36,368 bases of DNA from Parcubacteria group bacterium M10-OD1-1 (GTDB taxonomy: Bacteria > Patescibacteriota > Minisyncoccia > Moranbacterales > UBA2206): the NCBI GenBank assembly GCA_003056145.1, contig LSNL01000002.1, forward strand, positions 1-36,368. The letters run 5' to 3'. A model generated the notes under the pieces. The model was not told where the DNA came from and did no database searches. It worked only from the letters and a program-made list of their open reading frames with translations. The position numbers were made by a program, and so were the translations under genes. Below are positions 3,447 through 23,939 of the stretch, one piece after another (position 1 is the stretch's first letter; each line of letters starts with the position of its first letter).

Positions 3447-4241
3447 ATGAAATTAATAAGTTTCAATATTGGGATTAAAATTGATAACTCCAAAGAGATA
3501 GGAAATTTTATCAAATCACAAGATGCAGACATAGTTGCGTTTCAAGAAATTATAAAACATTTTAATGAATCTGTTTTTGAGATATATAAATCCAAAAAAC
3601 ATATCGAAGAAATTATTGGCAAGAAATTACCTTATTCTTTTTTTGGTCCACAATGGATAGCCGATGCAATGAGAAAAAATGGAAAGATGCATCGCGATTT
3701 TAATGGTTTTATAGAACAAGGAAATGAAATAATTTCAAAATTCCCAATTTTAAAGGCTACTAATGAATTTTATTATAAACATTATTCCTTAGAATTAGAA
3801 TGGGCAAATTTTCATACTGAAGATCATCCAAGGTGTGTTCAAATTGTGGAATTGAATGTTAATAATAAAAATTTGCAAATTCTTAATTTACATGGTTTAT
3901 ATTCCAAAGATAAGCAAGACAGTAAGAGAACTCTTAATCAGTGTAAATATATTCTTGAAGCTGCTAAAAGAAAAAATATTCCAACAATTATTGTAGGAGA
4001 TTTTAATTTGTTTCCCGAAACAAAAAGCATTGGAATATTAAATAAAAAATTCAGAAATTTAATTGATGAATACAAAATCAAATCCACAAGACCTACTTTT
4101 GATGACGAAACCGATAAAAGAAATAATGTAGTTGATTACATTTTTGTAAATGATAAAATTAAGGTGAATAATTTTGGAGTTATCATTACCAATATTTCCG
4201 ACCATCTTCCTTTGATTCTAGATTTTGATATATTAGATTAA
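3447..4241 (+). CDS. Endonuclease/exonuclease/phosphatase (EEP) family protein
   Basis: FNIGI...VAFQEI, IIVGDFNLFPETKS, NVVDYIFVND, ISDHLPLILDF are EEP motifs. Confidence 0.85.
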   Translation: MKLISFNIGIKIDNSKEIGNFIKSQDADIVAFQEIIKHFNESVFEIYKSKKHIEEIIGKKLPYSFFGPQWIADAMRKNGKMHRDFNGFIEQGNEIISKFPILKATNEFYYKHYSLELEWANFHTEDHPRCVQIVELNVNNKNLQILNLHGLYSKDKQDSKRTLNQCKYILEAAKRKNIPTIIVGDFNLFPETKSIGILNKKFRNLIDEYKIKSTRPTFDDETDKRNNVVDYIFVNDKIKVNNFGVIITNISDHLPLILDFDILD

Positions 4242-4355
4242 AAAAGTTTGAAGTTATAAAAATAATATTTTTTTACCTTAATTTCAATTTGAGCTAAAGT
4301 TAAGAAAACACCCGCAGACTATTTAATTTGTTATCTCATAATATGAACAAATAAT

Positions 4356-5615
4356 ATGAACAAAAAAATTTTAATAATTGGAATAGCATTTTTCGTAACG
4401 GCTATTATAACTATGGCAGTAGTATTATTTCTTTTTTCTTATCAACCAGCCCAAACACCGCAAACAGAGGATGTTGGTTTAACGCAACAAGGAATTCAGG
4501 AAGTTGTAAGGGCTAATAATCAATTTGCTTTTGATTTATACTCTAAATTAAGTAAATCAAAACAAGGAAATATATTCTATTCGCCCTATAGTCTCTCTGC
4601 TGCTTTGGCAATGACTTATGAAGGGGCTAGGGGTCAGACAGCTAAGGAAATAAAATCTGTTTTTCATTTTCCTAAAAGTAATATTTTAAGATCTAATTTT
4701 GCTACAATTCAAAATGGAATAAATAAAGAAAATAAATTTTATAAATTAAAAACAGGAAATGCTTTATGGGCTCAATATAATTATCGGTTTCTTAAAAATT
4801 ACACAGACAGAGTAAAAAAATACTATGGGGGTAAGGTAGTTAATCTTGATTTTAAACAAGAAACTGAAAAATCAAGACAGACAATTAATTCATTCATTGA
4901 GAAACAAACTAACAATAAGATTAAAAATTTAATCCCAGCTGGAGTTCTTAGTTCAATGACAAAATTAGTTATTACGAATGCAATTTATTTTAAAGGAAGT
5001 TGGAAATGGGAATTTGATAAATCTAAAACTTCTGAACAGGATTTTAAGATAACTCCTACAAAGGTTGTAAAAACTCCTATGATGTATATGAAGCCAGATA
5101 AAGTCAGATTTGATTACGCTAAGATTAAAGGTTTACAAATTTTGGAGTTGCCTTATAAAGGTGAAAAAATTTCTATGTTGATATTATTACCAACGAATAA
5201 TCTTAATTCCATAGAATCTTCTTTAACTGTCAGAAAGCTTAATGAATATAAAGCTCAAATGAAAGAAACAAAATTAGATTCAATTTCGCTCCCTAATTTT
5301 AGTTTTAATAGTAAATATTTTATGAAAGGAATATTGAGTGCTATGGGTATGCCAACTGCTTTTGGTAATGCTGATTTTTCAGGTATGGATGGAACAAAAA
5401 ATTTACAAATTAGTCAAGTTATCCATCAAGCTTTTATAAAAATTAATGAAAAAGGAACAGAAGCCGCAGCTGTAACAGCAGTTACAATGAAAAACTCAAT
5501 GGTTATGTCAAGGAACATTTTCAGAGCAGACCACCCATTTATTTTTATAATTCAGGAAAAAGGAACGGGCAATATTCTGTTTATGGGACGAGTTATAGAC
5601 CCAACTAAACAGTAA
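4356..5615 (+). CDS. Serpin family protein with N-terminal membrane anchor/signal
   Basis: SPYSLSAALAMTYEGARGQTAKEI, VITNAIYFKGSWKWEF, hinge KGTEAAAVTAV, HPFIFIIQEKGTGNILFMGRVIDP. Confidence 0.95.
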   Translation: MNKKILIIGIAFFVTAIITMAVVLFLFSYQPAQTPQTEDVGLTQQGIQEVVRANNQFAFDLYSKLSKSKQGNIFYSPYSLSAALAMTYEGARGQTAKEIKSVFHFPKSNILRSNFATIQNGINKENKFYKLKTGNALWAQYNYRFLKNYTDRVKKYYGGKVVNLDFKQETEKSRQTINSFIEKQTNNKIKNLIPAGVLSSMTKLVITNAIYFKGSWKWEFDKSKTSEQDFKITPTKVVKTPMMYMKPDKVRFDYAKIKGLQILELPYKGEKISMLILLPTNNLNSIESSLTVRKLNEYKAQMKETKLDSISLPNFSFNSKYFMKGILSAMGMPTAFGNADFSGMDGTKNLQISQVIHQAFIKINEKGTEAAAVTAVTMKNSMVMSRNIFRADHPFIFIIQEKGTGNILFMGRVIDPTKQ

Positions 5616-7279: not shown

Positions 7280-9517
7280 ATGAAATTTACAACAATACTA
7301 CCTTTGCTAAGTACTTTTTTCGTTGCCTTTTTAGGTTGGATAGTTTTGATTAAGGCTAGAAAAAATAGAATTAGTTTCACTTTCGTCTTATTTTCGTTGA
7401 CAATATCAATTTGGATGTTTGGAACTTTTATGATGTTTTTAGAAAGAAGTAATATATCGGATATTATTTTTTGGGATAAATTTGTTTATATTGGTGTGAT
7501 TTATATCCCTGCTATAATGTATCATTTTGGATTAGCTTTAACTAAAAATAAAAAAACTATTTCAAAAAAAATTTTATTTTTTGGATACACACTTTCAACC
7601 TTCTTTTTAATTTTACTTCCGACAAAACTTTTTGTTAATGGAGTATTTATCTATAAAGGAGGAGCTCATACAAAAGCTCAATTATTTCACCATCTTTTTT
7701 TAGTTTATTTTGTATTTTTTATAATACTATGGTTTGTAACTGTATATAAATATTATAAGGTTAGTAGGTTATCTATAGAAAGAGAGAGAATAAAATATTA
7801 TTTTATATCATTCTTTATTTTAGCTTTTTTCGGATCACTTGGTTATCTTCCAGCTTATGGGATAGGAATATATCCATTTGAATATTTGGCAGGAGTTGTC
7901 TTTGTAACTATCTTATTTTACGCGATTGTTCGGCATCGCTTGATGGATATTAAATTAGTTTTACGAAAATCAACAGTTTTATTGTTGTCTTTGTTGACTA
8001 TTTTTATTCCTGCTTTTATGGCGATGACTTTTTTTGCATATCATATTGGTAATTTTTCAATCTGGCCTAATTTTTTTGTTCTAATGATAGGAGTTTTAAT
8101 TTACCCAATTGTTAGAAATTATTATTTTCAATTAGCTAATAAATATTTATTTTCCTCTCTTTATGATAGCGTTCAGGTTGTTTCAGAAGTTAGCAATGGT
8201 TTAAAGATGATTTTAGATGTGAATAAGACTTATCAGTTTATAAATGCAGTATTTACTAAAATATTTCATCTTAAATCTTTTTATATTTTTATAGCTGATA
8301 CTGAAGGGGAAAAATATGTAATTAAATATAAAAAAGGAGTTAAAATAAAAAAGCCAGACGTATTTCTACGAAATAGTTCTTTACAAAAATATTTTTTTCA
8401 AGGAGAGACAACTATTATAGTAGAAGAGCTGCAATCTAATTATTCTAATAAAGATGCTAAAGAGCTAGTTGACTTTTTGACCAAATTAGGTGTTGAAATA
8501 GTTGTTCCGTTAAATGTTAAAAACAAAAATATTGGGTTACTTGCTTTAGGGGCTAAAGAATCAGGTGATATGTATAATAGCGAAGATTTGCAAATTCTAG
8601 ATACGATTAGTGCTCAGCTCGGAGTATCTATTAACAATGCTCAATTATATACAGAAGTTAAGGATTTTAATGTTAAATTAAGAAAAGAAATTGTTCGAGC
8701 AACATCTAAATTACAGACAACCAATAACCGATTACAAATTATGGCTAATAGATTAGCTCAAGCTAACGATCAATTGAGAAAACTGGACAATGCTAAAACT
8801 GAATTTATTTCTATTGCTTCGCACCAGTTAAGAACTCCTTTAACTGCTGTTAAGGGTTTTGTCTCTTTGCTACTAGAAGGTTCTTATGGGAAACTTAGTA
8901 AAGAAATAAAAAGTACTTTAAATAAAGTTTATTTAAGTAATGAAAGACTTATTCAGTTAGTTGAAGATTTGTTAAATGTTTCGAAAATTGAGGCAGGTCG
9001 AATGGATTATCAATTTGAAAAGACTCAGCTGATAGATGTTTGCCGAGAGCTATTTGATACTTTTATCATTAGGGCTAAAGAAAGGCGATTGAAATTAGAG
9101 CTAAAGATTTCTTCTAAAAAAATTCCTGAAGTTATGACGGATAGAAATAAAATTAGAGAAGTCATTTCTAATTTAATTGATAATGCTATTAAGTATACTT
9201 TAAAAGGAGGTGTGATTGTAAAAATTACTTCTAGTAACAATAGGGTTCAAATAGCTATTATAGACACAGGAATTGGCGTTCCAGCGGAAGAAACTCCTTA
9301 TCTTTTTCAAAAATTCTCTCGGGGAAAAGATATTTCTCGACTTAATACTGGAGGAACAGGACTAGGATTACATGTGGGTAAAAAAATAATGGAAGCTTTA
9401 CACGGAAAAATTTGGCTGGAATCAGCTGGAACTAATAAGGGATCTACTTTTTTTATAGAAGTGCCTATTGAAATTCTAAAAATTAAAAATAATAAAAAAG
9501 ATAATAAAATTTATTGA
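7280..9517 (+). CDS. Sensor histidine kinase (N-terminal 7TM-type region, GAF, HisKA, HATPase_c)
   Basis: Multiple TM helices, GAF-like middle region, FISIASHQLRTPLTAVKGF H-box, NLIDNAIKYT N-box, DTGIGVP, GGTGLGLHV. Confidence 0.95.
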   Translation: MKFTTILPLLSTFFVAFLGWIVLIKARKNRISFTFVLFSLTISIWMFGTFMMFLERSNISDIIFWDKFVYIGVIYIPAIMYHFGLALTKNKKTISKKILFFGYTLSTFFLILLPTKLFVNGVFIYKGGAHTKAQLFHHLFLVYFVFFIILWFVTVYKYYKVSRLSIERERIKYYFISFFILAFFGSLGYLPAYGIGIYPFEYLAGVVFVTILFYAIVRHRLMDIKLVLRKSTVLLLSLLTIFIPAFMAMTFFAYHIGNFSIWPNFFVLMIGVLIYPIVRNYYFQLANKYLFSSLYDSVQVVSEVSNGLKMILDVNKTYQFINAVFTKIFHLKSFYIFIADTEGEKYVIKYKKGVKIKKPDVFLRNSSLQKYFFQGETTIIVEELQSNYSNKDAKELVDFLTKLGVEIVVPLNVKNKNIGLLALGAKESGDMYNSEDLQILDTISAQLGVSINNAQLYTEVKDFNVKLRKEIVRATSKLQTTNNRLQIMANRLAQANDQLRKLDNAKTEFISIASHQLRTPLTAVKGFVSLLLEGSYGKLSKEIKSTLNKVYLSNERLIQLVEDLLNVSKIEAGRMDYQFEKTQLIDVCRELFDTFIIRAKERRLKLELKISSKKIPEVMTDRNKIREVISNLIDNAIKYTLKGGVIVKITSSNNRVQIAIIDTGIGVPAEETPYLFQKFSRGKDISRLNTGGTGLGLHVGKKIMEALHGKIWLESAGTNKGSTFFIEVPIEILKIKNNKKDNKIY

Positions 9518-16307: not shown

Positions 16308-17417
16308 ATGGATATTTCTCAAATACAGACTATTCCTGAGGTAATTAATATTTTGAAAATATTAGTTACAGGTTTTTTAGCTTTTTTAATGGCGTTTTTT
16401 TCAACACCAATTTTTACCCATTTTCTTTATCAACATAAAATAGGAATTAAAATTAAAAAGAACTCAGTCAGTGGAGAAAAGTTAAAATATGTTAGTACTC
16501 TTCATCAACATAAATCCGGAACACCAACAATGGGCGGGGTTTTAATTTGGCTTTCGGTAGTAATTTTAGTTTTTGCGTCTCATTATATTTTCCCTTACAT
16601 TGCTCAGCTTTTTGGTATAAATTTTATTGCTAGATTAGATTTTTTAAGTCGTTCTCAGGTTTGGTTACCTCTTTTTGCCTTAGTTTCGGCAGGCATTCTC
16701 GGTCTTTTTGATGATTATATGAGTATTAAAGGTATTGGAGCTAATAAAGGCGGGGGAATGAGATTTTTTTCTCGTTTTGGTTGGTTAATTATAATTTCTG
16801 CTTTAGGTGCTTGGTGGTTTTATTTTAAATTAGGTTGGGACAAATTACATATTCCAGCAGTAGGAGATTTTGGCATTGGACTTTGGTATATTCCACTTTT
16901 TATTTTAGTAATTCTTTTCTCAGCTATTTCTTCTAATGAAACCGATGGTTTAGATGGTCTTAATGGCGGAATTTTATTGATTGCTTTTGGCTCCTTTGCC
17001 TTAATTTCAGCTTTTCAAAACAAAATAGACTTGGCGGCTTTTTGTGCAGCCTTAGCTGGAGCTCTTTTGGCTTTTCTTTGGTTTAATATTTATCCAGCTA
17101 GATTTTTTATGGGCGATACTGGGGCGGTTTCTTTAGGAATTACTTTGGGAGTTATTGCTATGCTAACTAATTCAGCTCTAGTTCTTCTCATTATTGTTTT
17201 TATATATGTGATTGAGTCAGGATCAGTCGTGATCCAACTTTTTTCAAAAAGATTTTTTGGTCGAAAAGTCTTTCTAGCCGCTCCCATTCATCATCATTTT
17301 GAGGCATTGGGTTGGCCAGAAACTAAAGTAACAATGCGTGCTTGGATTTTCACGGCAGTTACGGCTTTGATTGGAGTTATTGTGGGAATATTAGGTGCTG
17401 GTATTTTTAACAAGTAA
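16308..17417 (+). CDS. mraY: Phospho-N-acetylmuramoyl-pentapeptide-transferase
   Basis: GTPTMGGVLIW, GLFDDYMSIKG, NETDGLDGLNGG, FFMGDTGAVSLG, APIHHHFE. Confidence 0.97.
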   Translation: MDISQIQTIPEVINILKILVTGFLAFLMAFFSTPIFTHFLYQHKIGIKIKKNSVSGEKLKYVSTLHQHKSGTPTMGGVLIWLSVVILVFASHYIFPYIAQLFGINFIARLDFLSRSQVWLPLFALVSAGILGLFDDYMSIKGIGANKGGGMRFFSRFGWLIIISALGAWWFYFKLGWDKLHIPAVGDFGIGLWYIPLFILVILFSAISSNETDGLDGLNGGILLIAFGSFALISAFQNKIDLAAFCAALAGALLAFLWFNIYPARFFMGDTGAVSLGITLGVIAMLTNSALVLLIIVFIYVIESGSVVIQLFSKRFFGRKVFLAAPIHHHFEALGWPETKVTMRAWIFTAVTALIGVIVGILGAGIFNK

Positions 17418-17464
17418 ATTGAAGAATAGATTCAATAATTTGGTTCATTTTTCTTATAGATGAG

Positions 17465-17493
17465 TTGATTTTTATTTGGTTGTGTGCTAGGGT
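17465..17493 (+). promoter_or_regulatory. sigma70-like promoter for the structured locus at 17500-17940
   Basis: TTGATT (17465-17470)-N17-TAGGGT (17488-17493) with TG extension of the -10. Confidence 0.45.
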
Positions 17494-17549
17494 ACAAACA
17501 AGAAACGGTAGTTTAACAATATTATATTTTTGCAAAAAAAGGAGCTTCT

Positions 17550-17879
17550 ATGTACAAAGATACGCCGAAAGTCGTCGTTCGAGATGAGGATATTATATTA
17601 CAGTGGCAGGAGGAATCCGGAACAAAAAGGGATTTCCCCCTAGTTCTGCCAGCAAAAAAGGATGTGTTTCAGGAAAAAACAACAATTTTGTTTGTAGGTT
17701 TTTTCCTTGATTTTAAGAGAAAGAATATTCACAGGAAGAGACCAACTGATATAAGGTCGTATCAGGAAGATCCTTTTCCTGATACTCCCGTTGTGTATGG
17801 TAAGTTCCAGAGAAGGGTGTTTTTTTTGGAGCTTAGGTATGTCCCAGACATACCAAAGCAGTTTTGTGCAATTCCTTGA
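17550..17879 (+). CDS. 109-aa hypothetical protein, or a non-coding structured RNA carrying an ORF
   Basis: SD AAAGGAGC 6 nt before ATG; no recognisable domain; ORF lies inside a chain of strong hairpins. Confidence 0.45.
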   Translation: MYKDTPKVVVRDEDIILQWQEESGTKRDFPLVLPAKKDVFQEKTTILFVGFFLDFKRKNIHRKRPTDIRSYQEDPFPDTPVVYGKFQRRVFFLELRYVPDIPKQFCAIP

Positions 17880-17901
17880 GGCTTTAAGCTTAGGGAGTTG
17901 C
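17604..17901 (+). ncRNA. Chain of consecutive RNA hairpins (possible structured RNA or structured mRNA)
   Basis: Stems at 17604-17651, 17671-17680/17698-17707, 17759-17768/17776-17785, 17801-17814/17822-17835, 17836-17843/17847-17854, 17868-17880/17889-17901. Confidence 0.65.
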
Positions 17902-17904
17902 CAG

Positions 17905-17940
17905 AGATCTAATTCTGAATTTAGAGTTAGGTCTTTTTTT
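17905..17940 (+). terminator. Intrinsic terminator
   Basis: AGATCTAATTCT-GAATTT-AGAGTTAGGTCT (12 pairs, two G.U) followed by TTTTTT. Confidence 0.88.
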
Positions 17941-18070
17941 ATTGGTTGAGTCTTAAATGTTTTCAGGTTATAATAAAAACTAGAGAAATAAGGTATAGAC
18001 CTATTAAGATTTTTTTAAAAGCAATTAGTTTAATAGTCAAAAATTTAAATAAAGTAACTTAATCAAAAAA

Positions 18071-19243
18071 ATGGAAAATATAATAAATGGAAAAGAGGCT
18101 ATCATTGATTATGTGGCAGAATTAGTGAAAAATGGTGCTAATAAAACACGAGTCAAGGATCAATTAATGGCAGTTGGTTGGTCGGAAGATCAAGTAGACT
18201 TAGTTTATAGCAAGGCTTTAATTCAAAATGGAATTCCAGTTCCTAGCAAAATAAAATCTTCAGCTAATATAACAACATCAATTTCTGGTAAAAAGTCATC
18301 TACTGTAGAGGTGGCGCTTAATTTATTTTCTTTTATTCTTTTAGGAATAATTGCCATAGCGACAGGGACACTTTTTTATCAAATTATTAATAAATATTTT
18401 CCAGACACACTTATTACTAATTATTACCAAGGTCAAATTTCAACAGAGACAATTCATTATGCAATTGCAACATTAATTATCGGCTTTCCAATATATTATA
18501 TTTCTATGCGATTATGGTTTCGCGGATTTCAAAAAGATGAAGGTAAAAGGGAGACGAAATTAACAAAATGGTTGACTTATTTAGTATTACTAATTGCTTC
18601 AATTACTGTCGTTGGCGATTTAATAACAGCAGTGTTTACATTCTTACAAGGGGAAATTAGTGTGCGGTTTTTTCTTAAAGCTTTAACTATTCTGGCGATT
18701 GCTGGAGCGATTTTTGGTTTCTATTTTTTAGAACGGAGAAAAATCCAGTATCGTAAACCGATTTCTCAAGGTCTTTTTAAGCGCTTCGGAATAATTGTTT
18801 CAGCTACTATTTTTATTGGAATTATTTTAGGATTTATCGTCGGAGGATCGCCAACAACAGAAAGAAAGAGAGGATTTGATGCTCAAAGAGAAAAAGATCT
18901 TTTTACTATTTCAAATTGTGTAAGTAACTATGCCAGGAGATATAAAAGATTGCCAGAATCTTTGAATGAATTACAAACTAATATGTATTCATATTGCGCT
19001 AATAAAAAAGATCCTGAGACTAAGAAAGTTTATGAGTACCATATAATTACTGCTTCAAAAATCGTTGGAACAAATCGTGAAGGAACCTTTGAACTTTGTG
19101 CAAATTTTAATTTAAAATCGGAAAAAAATAACTCTGAAGGACATAATTATTATTCAGGTGATGGTAAATGGGAAAAACATAATGCTGGGAAAAATTGTGA
19201 TAAAGTAAATGTTATTTTTGAGAAATTTAATAGAAATCAATAG
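18071..19243 (+). CDS. Membrane protein, DUF5671-like
   Basis: N-terminal helical DYVAELVKNGANKTRVKDQLMAVGWSEDQV then several TM helices. Confidence 0.6.
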   Translation: MENIINGKEAIIDYVAELVKNGANKTRVKDQLMAVGWSEDQVDLVYSKALIQNGIPVPSKIKSSANITTSISGKKSSTVEVALNLFSFILLGIIAIATGTLFYQIINKYFPDTLITNYYQGQISTETIHYAIATLIIGFPIYYISMRLWFRGFQKDEGKRETKLTKWLTYLVLLIASITVVGDLITAVFTFLQGEISVRFFLKALTILAIAGAIFGFYFLERRKIQYRKPISQGLFKRFGIIVSATIFIGIILGFIVGGSPTTERKRGFDAQREKDLFTISNCVSNYARRYKRLPESLNELQTNMYSYCANKKDPETKKVYEYHIITASKIVGTNREGTFELCANFNLKSEKNNSEGHNYYSGDGKWEKHNAGKNCDKVNVIFEKFNRNQ

Positions 19244-19245
19244 TT

Positions 19246-19869
19246 ATGAATATAAAAAGGCAAATAGTAGTTATTCATGGTGGAGAAGTTTTCAATTCAT
19301 ATGAAGACTATTTAAAATACTTAAAAAATTATCCAGTTGACTTGAATCGGCTTATTAAAAGACCTCGCTGGAAAAATTATTTGCAGGATGATTTAGGCGA
19401 TAGTTGGGAAGTTTTTTCTCCGCAAATGCCGAATTTTCGTAATGCTAAATATTTAGAATGGAAGATTTGGTTTGAAAAAATCCTGCCACATCTTCAAGAC
19501 GGAGTTGTTCTTATTGGACAATCGTTAGGCGGAATTTTTTTGGCAAAGTATCTTTCGGAAAATGATTTTTCGGTAAAGATTTCTGCAACATATTTAGTTG
19601 CTGCTCCGTTTGATAGCAAGGCTAGAGATGACATTGATTATACCCTGGGAGATTTTGAGTTACCAGAATCTTTGGAAAAATTTCAAGCGCAGTCAGAAAA
19701 AATATTTATTTATCATTCAAAAGATGATTCACTCGTGCCTTTTTCTGATTTAGAAAAATATTCTCGGGCGCTTCCTAAAGCAGAAAAGGTTATTTTTTAT
19801 GATCGCGGACATTTTATTCAAGAGCATTTCCCAGAAATTGTAGAAGAAATTCGTAAGTTGGAAAAATAA
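19246..19869 (+). CDS. Alpha/beta hydrolase (RBBP9/YdeN-like)
   Basis: VVLIGQSLGGIFLAKYL nucleophile elbow, DDSLVPFSDLEKYSRALP, GHFIQEHFPEI. Confidence 0.85.
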   Translation: MNIKRQIVVIHGGEVFNSYEDYLKYLKNYPVDLNRLIKRPRWKNYLQDDLGDSWEVFSPQMPNFRNAKYLEWKIWFEKILPHLQDGVVLIGQSLGGIFLAKYLSENDFSVKISATYLVAAPFDSKARDDIDYTLGDFELPESLEKFQAQSEKIFIYHSKDDSLVPFSDLEKYSRALPKAEKVIFYDRGHFIQEHFPEIVEEIRKLEK

Positions 19870-19941
19870 TAAGAGAAATCCCGTTTTTATTCTGCTAATT
19901 AATTATTCTTTGTTGAATAGAATAAAAAGTAACTGTGGCTA

Positions 19942-19977
19942 AAGTATATATCAAAGTATATACTTAAGTATATACTT
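19942..19977. repeat. Three tandem 12-bp iterons, probable operator
   Basis: AAGTATATATCA / AAGTATATACTT / AAGTATATACTT; the last two are identical 12-bp palindromes. Confidence 0.8.
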
Positions 19978-19992
19978 TTAATTTTTAAAAAT

Positions 19993-20163
19993 ATGTCAAA
20001 ATTAAAAAATAAAAATACACGTAAATTAATGAGATTGGGCAAAACTAGTTTGGCCGTTACTTTGCCGAAAGAAATGATTAATTCTTTAGGTTGGCGGGAA
20101 AAACAAAAAGTGGTTGCTAAAAAAGTTCGAGGTGGAATTTTGATTAAGGATTGGAAAAAGTAA
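19993..20163 (+). CDS. 56-aa AbrB/MazE-like (SpoVT-AbrB swapped-hairpin) DNA-binding protein
   Basis: Not in the ORF track (too short): MSKLKNKNTRKLMRLGKTSLAVTLPKEMINSLGWREKQKVVAKKVRGGILIKDWKK. Confidence 0.8.
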   Translation: MSKLKNKNTRKLMRLGKTSLAVTLPKEMINSLGWREKQKVVAKKVRGGILIKDWKK

Positions 20164-20240
20164 ATTTATAAATCAAAAAAATAAATTTAAGGGTGACTAT
20201 TTATTGAAGAAGATAAAATTAGTAGATAAATTTTAGAAAT

Positions 20241-20280
20241 AAAAAACCGACAGGTTTCGTGACTTCCGAAACCTGCCGGC
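20241..20280 (-). terminator. Intrinsic terminator of the pyrE-pyrF unit (minus strand)
   Basis: Minus strand CCGGCAGGTTTCG-GAAGTCA-CGAAACCTGTCGG followed by TTTTTTATTT. Confidence 0.85.
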
Positions 20281-20306
20281 TAGATAAGAACTTAAACACT
20301 TATTTA

Positions 20307-21125
20307 TTATCGGGCAGAAGCTATGTCCGCATAAATCGCGGTAATAACCTCATGCCTAGTTTTCCCTCCTTTAGGCTCTCTTATTGGTCGTCCGATAATA
20401 AAACCTCTAACTCCATTGCGATAAGCCTCGCCTGGAGTCATGGTTCTTTTTTGGTCATCGGGCGGATCCCATGGCAACCTGATTCCAGGAGACCATATTT
20501 CCTTCTCGGGAAATTTTTTGTGAAGAGAAGGAGCTTCACGGGCCGAGGTCAGTAAAATATCCATACCAGCATTCACTGACATCTCGGCAAGCTTCAGCGT
20601 AAACCAACTCATTTGTTGACCTTCAGAATCAAAAATCATCCCTGGCGGAGGACTAATTCCAGCTTGCCGGAGCATTGTAATATTCATACTGGTTAAATAA
20701 TGAACTGCAATAATTTTTGGTGGTTTAATGCCCAGAATTCTTGCCTGTTCATCGCGTCCTTTAACAGCTTTCGCCATCATTTCTTCCATACCGAAAGCCA
20801 TCACATTAAAATATTCCATACCATTAAGTACCTGCTTTGTTATTCCTTTAGCAGCACCATAAATCGTATTTGGAATATCCACCAGCTTGACATCAGCAAA
20901 AGCTTTTTTGCCAAAATCAGTCGCGACCTGTAATGCCGTGGGGAGTGTGACATTGTTTATCAGTTCTAAACCGATTTTTGGCAAGGAAATACTCTCGTAA
21001 ACTTCTTCCATAAGAGAATATCCCGCTCTTAATGTCGGCGTATCAACTGGAAAAATGATCTTTACATCATTTTTTTCGGCAACCTTTTTACATCCCGTTC
21101 CTAGTGCAATCGCTGTCCCTGCCAT
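20307..21125 (-). CDS. pyrF: Orotidine 5'-phosphate decarboxylase-like
   Basis: KKAFADVKLVDIPNT (DxKxxD catalytic motif) and RNGVRGFIIGRPI phosphate-binding motif; SD AAGGAGG. Confidence 0.82.
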   Translation of the reverse strand: MAGTAIALGTGCKKVAEKNDVKIIFPVDTPTLRAGYSLMEEVYESISLPKIGLELINNVTLPTALQVATDFGKKAFADVKLVDIPNTIYGAAKGITKQVLNGMEYFNVMAFGMEEMMAKAVKGRDEQARILGIKPPKIIAVHYLTSMNITMLRQAGISPPPGMIFDSEGQQMSWFTLKLAEMSVNAGMDILLTSAREAPSLHKKFPEKEIWSPGIRLPWDPPDDQKRTMTPGEAYRNGVRGFIIGRPIREPKGGKTRHEVITAIYADIASAR

Positions 21126-21144
21126 TTTTTCTACCTCCTTAGTT

Positions 21145-21882
21145 TTATTTTTGAGAATTTTCTAATAATTCCCAATTCTCATCACTCACTTTAGGTTTTA
21201 TTCTTTTTGAGCCAATTTTACATAATTCACATGGAGGATCCCAAGAATTAATCCAATGTTTGACCAAAGCCAGAACATTAAAAGATCCATATTTTTTAAC
21301 CAGGATATATTCAATAGCTCCTCTATTGAGTATCACAAGCTCTACTGGCAAAATGTCTATTGCCGGGTAACGCCCTTTAATTTCACAGACTGTTTCTTTA
21401 AAGCCAGTCCCAGTAGTAGTAAAATCTTCTACTAGCAATAAGGTGCCATTCGGACTAGCTTGATTCCGTTTTTCCATAACAACAATTCTGCCCTGCTTGT
21501 CTTTGATAAGATTAAGGTTTTTAGCTCCCAAAATTTCTGCAACATCATTTCCAAGTTCAGTCGCTCCCTTAGGTATTCCAGCAACATAATCTGGTCGTTG
21601 CAGTCCAGAATCGTTATAAATACGAACGAGATTCTTAGCTATAATCCGTCGTAAGTTATTGTATTGCAAGACAGTTTTAGAATAGAAAAAACCGTCGCTA
21701 CACATTTTAGACTTAAGTTCAGCGTGTAAACCTACCCTTCCTTCTTCCGCAGCCACCCTATCATATGACCAGAACCCTTTAAACACATTAAAAATATGCA
21801 ACAAATCTTCCTTGGATAAGTTCACATCAAGTTTGTCCAAAGCCAGTAATTCTGATTTACTCATCATAATTATTGATTTCAT
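21145..21882 (-). CDS. pyrE: Orotate phosphoribosyltransferase-like
   Basis: PRPP-binding motif LLLVEDFTTTGTGFKE; paired with pyrF; SD AAGGAGC. Confidence 0.75.
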   Translation of the reverse strand: MKSIIMMSKSELLALDKLDVNLSKEDLLHIFNVFKGFWSYDRVAAEEGRVGLHAELKSKMCSDGFFYSKTVLQYNNLRRIIAKNLVRIYNDSGLQRPDYVAGIPKGATELGNDVAEILGAKNLNLIKDKQGRIVVMEKRNQASPNGTLLLVEDFTTTGTGFKETVCEIKGRYPAIDILPVELVILNRGAIEYILVKKYGSFNVLALVKHWINSWDPPCELCKIGSKRIKPKVSDENWELLENSQK

Positions 21883-21936
21883 TCTTTGCTCCTTAGTTTT
21901 ATTTGAGAATCTTTAAATTGAAAATGAACTATTAGT

Positions 21937-21965
21937 AGTCTACTGATTTAATTGAAATTAGTCAA
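21937..21965 (-). promoter_or_regulatory. Predicted pyrE-pyrF promoter
   Basis: Minus strand TTGACT (21960-21965)-N17-TAGACT (21937-21942). Confidence 0.55.
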
Positions 21966-22222
21966 TAAAATAGCAGATAACTTCTTAAATAATTAAATGT
22001 ATTACCTTGCTTATTTTTATTCTAGAAAGTAGGAGGTTAATAGCTAGAAATCAAATTGTAAATAAATAGTTCTTAAAAAAAATAGATTAAAGAAATAAAT
22101 TTTTTAAAAAGTAAGAATCAATTGATAGTTTGAAATCTTTAGTATAAAATAAAAGAGTGATTGGCAATTTAAGTTACTTAGAACTGTAAAATACAACTTA
22201 AGATAAATAGAAATAATTTTAA

Positions 22223-22795
22223 ATGCTCAACCAGTCAATAAAAATTAAAACGCTTGGATTAATTGGTCTTATTTTTCTTATTGGAATAGTAATTGGTTTT
22301 CAGCTCGGAAAAAATAATTTAGCAGTTAATAATTATCATCAAAATCAACTAACTGAAAAAGTAGTTAAAGATAAAATTTCTCAAGTAGCTTATATTGGAA
22401 AATATAAAGTTGCGAGAGTTATTGATGGTGATACAATTGAGATTGAAGGTGGAGAGCGAGTGAGGTATATTGGCATGGATACTCCAGAGACAGTCAAACC
22501 GCACACAGCTATTCAATGTTTTGGACCAGAAGCTAGCCAGGAAAATAAAAAATTAGTCGCTGGAAAAATAGTTCGTTTAGAAAAAGATGTAACTAACCGT
22601 GATAAATACGGTCGTTTATTGCGTTATGTCTGGTTAGGTAATAATTTAGTAGATTTAACTTTAGTACAATTAGGTTTTGCTCGTGCTACGCCTTATCCAC
22701 CTAATATTCATTATAAAACTAAATTTTATCAAGCTGAAAATTTAGCACGAAAACAAAAAATTGGTTTGTGGAAATCGTGTGTAAAAAATAATTAA
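22223..22795 (+). CDS. Thermonuclease (SNase-like) with N-terminal membrane segment
   Basis: VARVIDGDTIEIEGGERVRYIGMDTPET, RDKYGRLLRYVW, LVQLGFARATPYPPN. Confidence 0.93.
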   Translation: MLNQSIKIKTLGLIGLIFLIGIVIGFQLGKNNLAVNNYHQNQLTEKVVKDKISQVAYIGKYKVARVIDGDTIEIEGGERVRYIGMDTPETVKPHTAIQCFGPEASQENKKLVAGKIVRLEKDVTNRDKYGRLLRYVWLGNNLVDLTLVQLGFARATPYPPNIHYKTKFYQAENLARKQKIGLWKSCVKNN

Positions 22796-22904
22796 AACTA
22801 AATATAAATGTAGTAGATTAAGAAAGATAAATAGGGGTATAATAAAAAAACAGATATTTAATAAAATAATTCAAACAAATCAATCTAGATTATAAGAAAA
22901 AAAT

Positions 22905-23939
22905 ATGAAAATAAGAAGAATTCAAGAAGCTGAATTAGAAAATAAAAAGGTCTTATTGAGAGTAGATTTTAATGTAGCTTTAGAAAACGAGAAGGTAAAA
23001 GAAGATTTTAAAATTAAAGTTGCTCAAGAAACAATAAATTATTTATTAAGTCGAGGAGCTAAAGTAGCTCTACTTTCTCATCTCGGAAGACCAGAGGGGA
23101 TGGTTAAATCAGAATTTTCTCTAGCTCAAATAAAAGATGATGTACAGAAAATTCTAGGTAAAAAAATTAATTTTATTTCTGATTGTATTGGAGAAAAAAT
23201 AAATAAAATATCGCGAGAAGAGATACTTCTATTAGAAAATGTAAGATTTCATCTTGGGGATAAAAACAATAATCAAGAGTTTTCTCAAAAATTAGCTGAA
23301 AATTTCGATATTTTTATCAACGATGCTTTTAGTGTTTCTCATCGTGATCAAGCTTCGGTAACTGGAGTGGCTAAAATACTGCCTAGCTATGCAGGTTTTC
23401 GGCTACAAAAAGAAATAGCCGAAATGGAAAAGATAAAAAATAATTTTGAACGACCAGCAATAGCAATTATTGGTGGCGCAAAAATAAAAACTAAATTACC
23501 GGTGATTAATTTTTTTGAAACTAATTATGATTTTATTTTAGTAGGAGGGAAAATTGCTAACGAAGCTTTAGATGAAAAAATTAAATTTTCTGAGAAAGTT
23601 ATTTTACCGTTGGATTTTATAGACAATCGTTTAGATATTGGTAATAAAACTTTAGCTCAATTTAAGGCTCTGATTGTTTCGGCTAAAACTATTGTCTGGA
23701 ATGGTCCGACCGGAAAATTTGAAGAAAAGAAATATGCTAAAAGTTCCAATGAAATTTTAGAGGCAATTTTGGCTTCAGGAGCATACACGGTAATTGGTGG
23801 AGGAGAAACAATTGAAATAGTAGAAAAGAATAAAGCAATGAACAAAATTAGTTTTGTTTCTACTGGTGGCGGTGCAATGCTGGCTTATTTGGGAGGTGAG
23901 AAGATGCCAGGGATTGAAGTTTTAGAAAATAGAAAGTAA
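22905..23939 (+). CDS. pgk: Phosphoglycerate kinase, compact form
   Basis: KVLLRVDFNVAL, LLSHLGRPEG, LLENVRFH, INDAFSVSHRDQAS, GGAKIKTK, WNGPTGKFE, VSTGGGAML. Confidence 0.95.
   Translation: MKIRRIQEAELENKKVLLRVDFNVALENEKVKEDFKIKVAQETINYLLSRGAKVALLSHLGRPEGMVKSEFSLAQIKDDVQKILGKKINFISDCIGEKINKISREEILLLENVRFHLGDKNNNQEFSQKLAENFDIFINDAFSVSHRDQASVTGVAKILPSYAGFRLQKEIAEMEKIKNNFERPAIAIIGGAKIKTKLPVINFFETNYDFILVGGKIANEALDEKIKFSEKVILPLDFIDNRLDIGNKTLAQFKALIVSAKTIVWNGPTGKFEEKKYAKSSNEILEAILASGAYTVIGGGETIEIVEKNKAMNKISFVSTGGGAMLAYLGGEKMPGIEVLENRK

Follow-up and report, generated by a model that had tools for sequence, protein, structure and literature searches.

The window analysed here, a stretch of 36,368 nucleotides, carries on its plus strand a full transcription and translation unit at positions 17465-17942, made up of a promoter-like element, a leader, an SD sequence, an open reading frame and a terminator (Table 1). 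Our reading of this unit, to which we give about even odds (roughly 0.5), is that it is a real, monocistronic and lineage-specific protein gene, its coding region moulded into a series of local hairpins and its ribosome-binding region left open. What we computed is the fold, the effect of codon order upon it, the low chance of the reading frame, the open start and a set of similar genes. A first, sequence-only reading of this DNA had described a promoter with a 17-nt spacer, an A-rich leader, an SD, a 109-aa frame and a terminator, and all of them were located in the sequence. The promoter was missing from the output of a sigma-70 consensus scan because its TAGGGT matches TATAAT at only three of six positions. 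The pattern TTGAYW-N17-TAGGGT is common to this unit and to a second hairpin-rich gene, C4:26843 (there as TTGACA-N17-TAGGGT), and the two share TTTAACAAT in their leaders. The terminator is present, as both its pairing probability and a terminator scan indicate, but not at 17905-17940, where it had first been placed; its helix has the coordinates and pair count given in the table.

Table 1. Features of the focal unit and of the insertion that carries it (window coordinates).
Feature	Position	Strand	Evidence
Lineage-specific insertion between mraY and pgk, carrying the focal unit	17418..22904	.	Synteny; pgk starts at 22905
Promoter-like TTGATT (17465-17470), 17-nt spacer, TAGGGT (17488-17493), TG upstream of the second hexamer	17465..17493	+	Sequence
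A-rich 5' leader with TTTAACAAT (17512-17520) and SD AAGGAG (17539-17544)	17494..17549	+	Sequence; -20 to -8 region 0.60 unpaired
109-codon ORF, orphan protein P0001; ATG 17550, stop TGA 17877-17879	17550..17879	+	ORF list, shuffle tests
Hairpin 17604-17611/17644-17651 around 17612-17618/17630-17636	17604..17651	+	Mean pairing probability 0.87 and 0.73
Hairpin AGGAAAAAAC/GTTTTTTCCT, competing with alternatives	17669..17710	+	Pairing probability ~0.33
Hairpin, core GTATCAGGAA/TTCCTGATAC (17759-17768/17776-17785)	17749..17796	+	Core pairing probability 0.97-1.0
14-pair hairpin with G-U pairs, 17801-17814/17822-17835	17801..17835	+	Pairing probability 0.5-0.73
Hairpin, core GGTATGTC/GACATACC (17836-17843/17847-17854)	17831..17859	+	Core pairing probability ~1.0
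Stop-codon-containing hairpin, 17868-17880/17889-17901	17865..17903	+	Pairing probability 0.69-1.0, mean 0.91
Intrinsic terminator: helix 17904-17917/17922-17935 (14 pairs, 4 G-U) and T tract	17904..17942	+	Mean pairing probability 0.96; terminator scan

The neighbourhood places the unit in its lineage. From the downstream ORFs, we judge pgk to be the very next gene after mraY in about 21 of 30 relatives; here some 5.4 kb lie between the two. The focal unit comes first in that interval, genes for a DUF5671 protein and a serine hydrolase-like protein follow, then two on the opposite strand and finally one for a nuclease (SNase). Synteny in the relatives gave no counterpart of the focal unit, which is an acquisition or innovation specific to the lineage. 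Some relatives have other genes after mraY, for example a metallo-hydrolase-like ORF beginning MKIYFLGTNGW.

The fold is strong by every comparison with dinucleotide shuffles. For 17510-17945 the minimum free energy is -140.4 kcal/mol, against a shuffle mean of -100.2 (sd 5.6; z -7.12); the sequence-only reading had counted equally stable shuffled folds as evidence against the structure, and none of the 100 shuffles folded as low. The ORF alone gives z -5.2 (0 of 300 shuffles). In a scan of the 866-kb genome by 300-nt windows on both strands, of which 11,477 of 11,526 were completed, the one starting at C3:17700 ranked 9 of 11,477, with z -5.07 by G+C regression. Of the seven stems first listed, five hold up at pairing probabilities mostly of 0.7-1 (17604-17609/17646-17651, for instance, at 0.72-0.95); the one at 17671-17707 lies within an ambiguous region (17671-17680/17698-17707, about 0.33), and that of the terminator needed the shift already described. 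Among 200 ordinary genes the 99th percentile of the paired fraction is 0.524, and the focal gene equals it at 0.53. Its unpaired fraction is 0.60 at -20 to -8 and 0.25 at +190 to +270: the start region is open as in ordinary genes, and the body is more paired, with a class mean of 0.33-0.37 unpaired against 0.43-0.44.

The sequence-only reading had set two alternatives side by side: a structured non-coding RNA of roughly 440 nt whose open frame is fortuitous, or a second structured mRNA like the one at 1390-1899 of the window (locus 1). The length of the frame bears on the choice. At least 109 codons stay open after the SD-ATG in only 7 of 20,000 dinucleotide shuffles, and when the predicted structure was preserved and its base pairs and loops were permuted, frames this long arose in 7 and 2 of 20,000. 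The chance of such an ORF is therefore about 3.5e-4 even with the hairpins kept, so the hairpins do not explain the frame. For a non-coding RNA speak the strong fold itself (z -7.1), a weak codon-usage signal (the true frame scores -0.169 and two other frames -0.186 and -0.203, with no clear separation), a poor single-sequence AlphaFold model of P0001 (pLDDT 45, mostly strands) and the isolation of that protein. No homolog of it was found among genomes of the family and order, 384 genomes of the class, viral contigs, genome contigs, phages or plasmids, and searches of Pfam, NCBIfam, PHROGs and PDB were likewise empty, as the earlier remark that the peptide has no recognisable domain had anticipated. 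Class-level matches to P0001 at E 1e-3 to 0.1 were regarded as chance; many contain stops. Judged from these searches, the focal gene appears restricted to this ultra-small bacterium among the sequences covered, and its protein would be of no known kind. The non-coding alternative is nevertheless disfavoured, and we hold it to be quite improbable, because of the low chance of the frame, a codon order that favours structure, an SD with an open start region, and sister loci that encode recognisable proteins (an alpha/beta hydrolase, an ASCH domain and a receiver-like protein); nor does Rfam recognise an RNA here, with no match in the window at the gathering threshold and none in 17400-18070 at E up to 1. 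The structured mRNA is the alternative that is supported, and the focal ORF very probably codes for protein.

If the frame is coding, does its codon order favour the fold? In our synonymous shuffle the protein is fixed and the same codons are permuted among synonymous positions. The native codons of the focal ORF fold lower than these shuffles (z -3.25; better than 300 of 300), and recoding with the codon usage of the genome gives z -6.1 (0 of 300). By this effect the ORF ranks 7 of 131 ORFs of 270-420 nt. The value depends on the measure, running from -3.5 to -5.6 with fewer shuffles and reaching only -1.6 (rank 152 of 919) with 150-nt tiles. Across the 919 predicted ORFs of the genome the median synonymous z is -0.37, with a few far outliers, and 46 genes from a region of E. 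coli K-12 have a mean of -1.07 and a minimum of -4.5; three of these 46 reach -4 or lower. Set against those E. coli genes, the focal signal is moderate. The gene could be an unremarkable orphan at the far end of a general bacterial bias towards local mRNA structure, its hairpins serving no gene-specific role and noticed because they were looked for. The modest focal z, its fall with short tiles, the same bias in E. coli with a tail to -4.5 and the widespread structural selection already published (PMC6544989) all suit that explanation. It sits poorly with the rank of 9 among 11,477 windows, with the z of -7.1 against dinucleotide shuffles and -6.1 against genome-codon recoding, and with the much stronger signal of comparable genes elsewhere in this genome; we think it somewhat unlikely.

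Several of the stems are perfect, which raises the question of whether the palindromes are a matter of DNA (template switching in quasi-palindromes, or cruciform-forming sequence) instead of selection on RNA. The antisense strand of the focal ORF also folds better than its synonymous shuffles (z -3.4), and in the strongest sister gene the two strands score almost alike (-10.9 sense, -10.7 antisense), both as a DNA-level origin would have it. Specificity for the sense strand consequently rests on codon composition and on counts of G-U pairs. The sense fold of the focal gene has 14 such pairs and the antisense fold 4 (0.042 vs 0.012 per nt). The corresponding densities in ordinary genes are 0.026 and 0.016 per nt, and most sister genes show the sense-strand excess too. 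The hairpins, moreover, sit in units with an SD and a terminator and spare the start region. Against that evidence a DNA-level origin looks very improbable, and selection at the RNA level has probably acted on the focal gene.

The scans suggest that about a dozen genes of this genome are tiled with hairpins, the focal gene being a milder example; the loci of the set were chosen for their hairpins. The far outliers among the 919 ORFs, by synonymous z, are C4:10225 (-12), C3:1390, which is locus 1 (-10), C1:42650 (-6.2) and C4:26843 (-5.9), and longer or whole-ORF folds add C4:11344, C4:214563, C2:21006, C6:38394 and the focal gene. The sister genes C4:10225, C3:1390, C1:42650, C4:26843, C4:11344 and C4:214563 span about -4 to -12. 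The focal gene falls within the definition of the set, with its SD-led ORF, its paired fraction of 0.53 against 0.524 and its codon-order rank of 7 of 131. Among the sisters, C4:214563 encodes an ASCH domain (E 8e-8) and locus 1 a receiver-like protein with a weak match to Pfam Response_reg (E 1e-3). The locus 1 protein has homologs in seven relatives at 34-47% identity, and of five of their genes tested four are not tiled (z -0.9 to -1.6) and one stands at -3.7, compared with about -10 here. Tiling at locus 1 does not follow the protein family, and so this is not a conserved RNA family.

Part of the set is linked to leaders that resemble boxA. The boxA-like TGYTCTTTGAAA has four copies in the genome, where we estimate about 0.7 from base composition, and three of the four precede tiled ORFs. 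TGYTCTTTGAAAA precedes the tiled genes C4:10225, C4:11344 and C1:42650, as well as two genes of relatives, L094 and L088, which came to light as further tiled genes when 27 relatives were searched with TGYTCTTTGAAA; other boxA-like matches in those relatives are not tiled. The focal leader does not carry the boxA consensus (GYTCTTTRAAAA-like), its TTTAACAAT being a partial resemblance only. On C4 (L010:10048-11988) lie two adjoining orphan ORFs of 228 and 214 aa. Both are preceded by TGCTCTTTGAAAA, which resembles boxA, and no coding region of the genome is more tiled with hairpins than the first of them (z about -12). L094 (1440-2640, from a Moranbacterium relative) has a promoter, a boxA-like element, hairpins from end to end and a terminator, and its product is a secreted alpha/beta hydrolase (Pfam BD-FAE, E 5e-18). 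Taken over the initial 600 nt of the ATG ORF its synonymous z is -8.7, and a longer frame gives -14.5. No homolog of it was found in 10 genomes of its own family, a search of genome contigs returned only itself, and Rfam gave no match to the tiled genes of the relatives. We also considered boxA followed by SD-ATG as a widespread mRNA leader in the class and rejected it, since it occurs in 4 of 286 genomes.

What might the hairpins be for? Codon order, and probably the choice of amino acids too, would lay the coding region out as serial local hairpins, which would then work at the level of the message. RNase Y, which the genome encodes along with NusB, is one of the single-strand-specific endonucleases, enzymes that require unpaired stretches. 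A folded body may shield the message from such enzymes, or the hairpins may pace elongation, or both; with the start left open, the outcome would be a longer-lived message or one read at a controlled pace. We put forward mRNA stabilisation or translation pacing only tentatively. A profile search of the genome, which is 97% complete, gave two weak matches to Rho, read as the beta and alpha subunits of ATP synthase, so the genome appears to lack it. Without Rho, translation could be slow or uncoupled and yet not bring on Rho-dependent termination, and the lack of a detectable Rho may be why hairpin tiling is tolerable. It also means that classical anti-Rho antitermination is unlikely to be the purpose of boxA here. 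One may go further and propose that one class of mRNA in Moranbacteria and their near relatives stands apart: tiled with hairpins, in many cases preceded by boxA, folded throughout the body, long-lived or slowly translated or endowed with a second RNA function, and permitted by the absence of Rho; so broad a claim strikes us as unlikely as it stands.

Two other sightings in the host genome deserve a record. At C2:84150-84420 (L017, about 4150-4420) four copies of GTTCCACGTGGAAC, resembling the parS site of ParB, lie inside a predicted membrane-protein ORF; they translate as FHVE(Q/H)F and VPRGT and may be a parS cluster within a coding region. On the minus strand at C7:108300-109100 (L046, about 8300-9100) is a 5S-rRNA-like sequence, one helix of which seems to contain an additional hairpin, about 60 nt long.

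From the set to which the focal gene belongs, it would seem that these bacteria tailor some of their messages for stability or controlled translation. Should the set prove real, there would be CPR bacteria whose proteins are encoded in messages folded into hairpins nearly end to end, far past the mild structure bias known in other bacteria. Such messages would offer natural examples of fully folded mRNAs that ribosomes read and on which RNases fail, and perhaps a new role for boxA outside rRNA. None of the literature searched describes hairpin-tiled mRNAs from Patescibacteria.

How does all this compare with known systems? BoxA outside rRNA has a precedent in the suhB mRNA (PMC5725501). Like the transcripts bound by NusB-NusE (rRNA leaders and suhB mRNA), several of the sister genes follow an element, TGYTCTTTGAAAA, that is near the published consensus GYTCTTTAANA, and the genome has NusB; the focal gene differs in having only a partial match (TTTAACAAT). 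With the large structured RNAs of Rfam the focal unit shares a long chain of stable helices, its own promoter and its terminator, but it has no Rfam match, no counterpart with a shared structure was found among the relatives searched, and its SD-led frame is intact. The closest comparison is with the selection for mRNA structure that acts on coding sequences: Gebert et al. (2019, PMC6544989) report it for about 2.5% of bacterial ORFs and cite Katz and Burge (2003) on bacterial coding regions selected for local structure. There as here, the native codon order is more structured than its synonymous shuffles. The difference is that here entire coding regions are consecutive hairpins, mostly in lineage-specific genes, and that the strongest sister genes, at z -7 to -12, fall outside the range of our 46 E. 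coli genes, whose minimum is -4.5. The focal locus is best read as an extreme variant of this known selection on mRNA structure, not as a new non-coding RNA, and as a moderate member of its set; what is new is the extreme tiling in a mostly lineage-specific set of genes, together with its partial link to boxA-like leaders.
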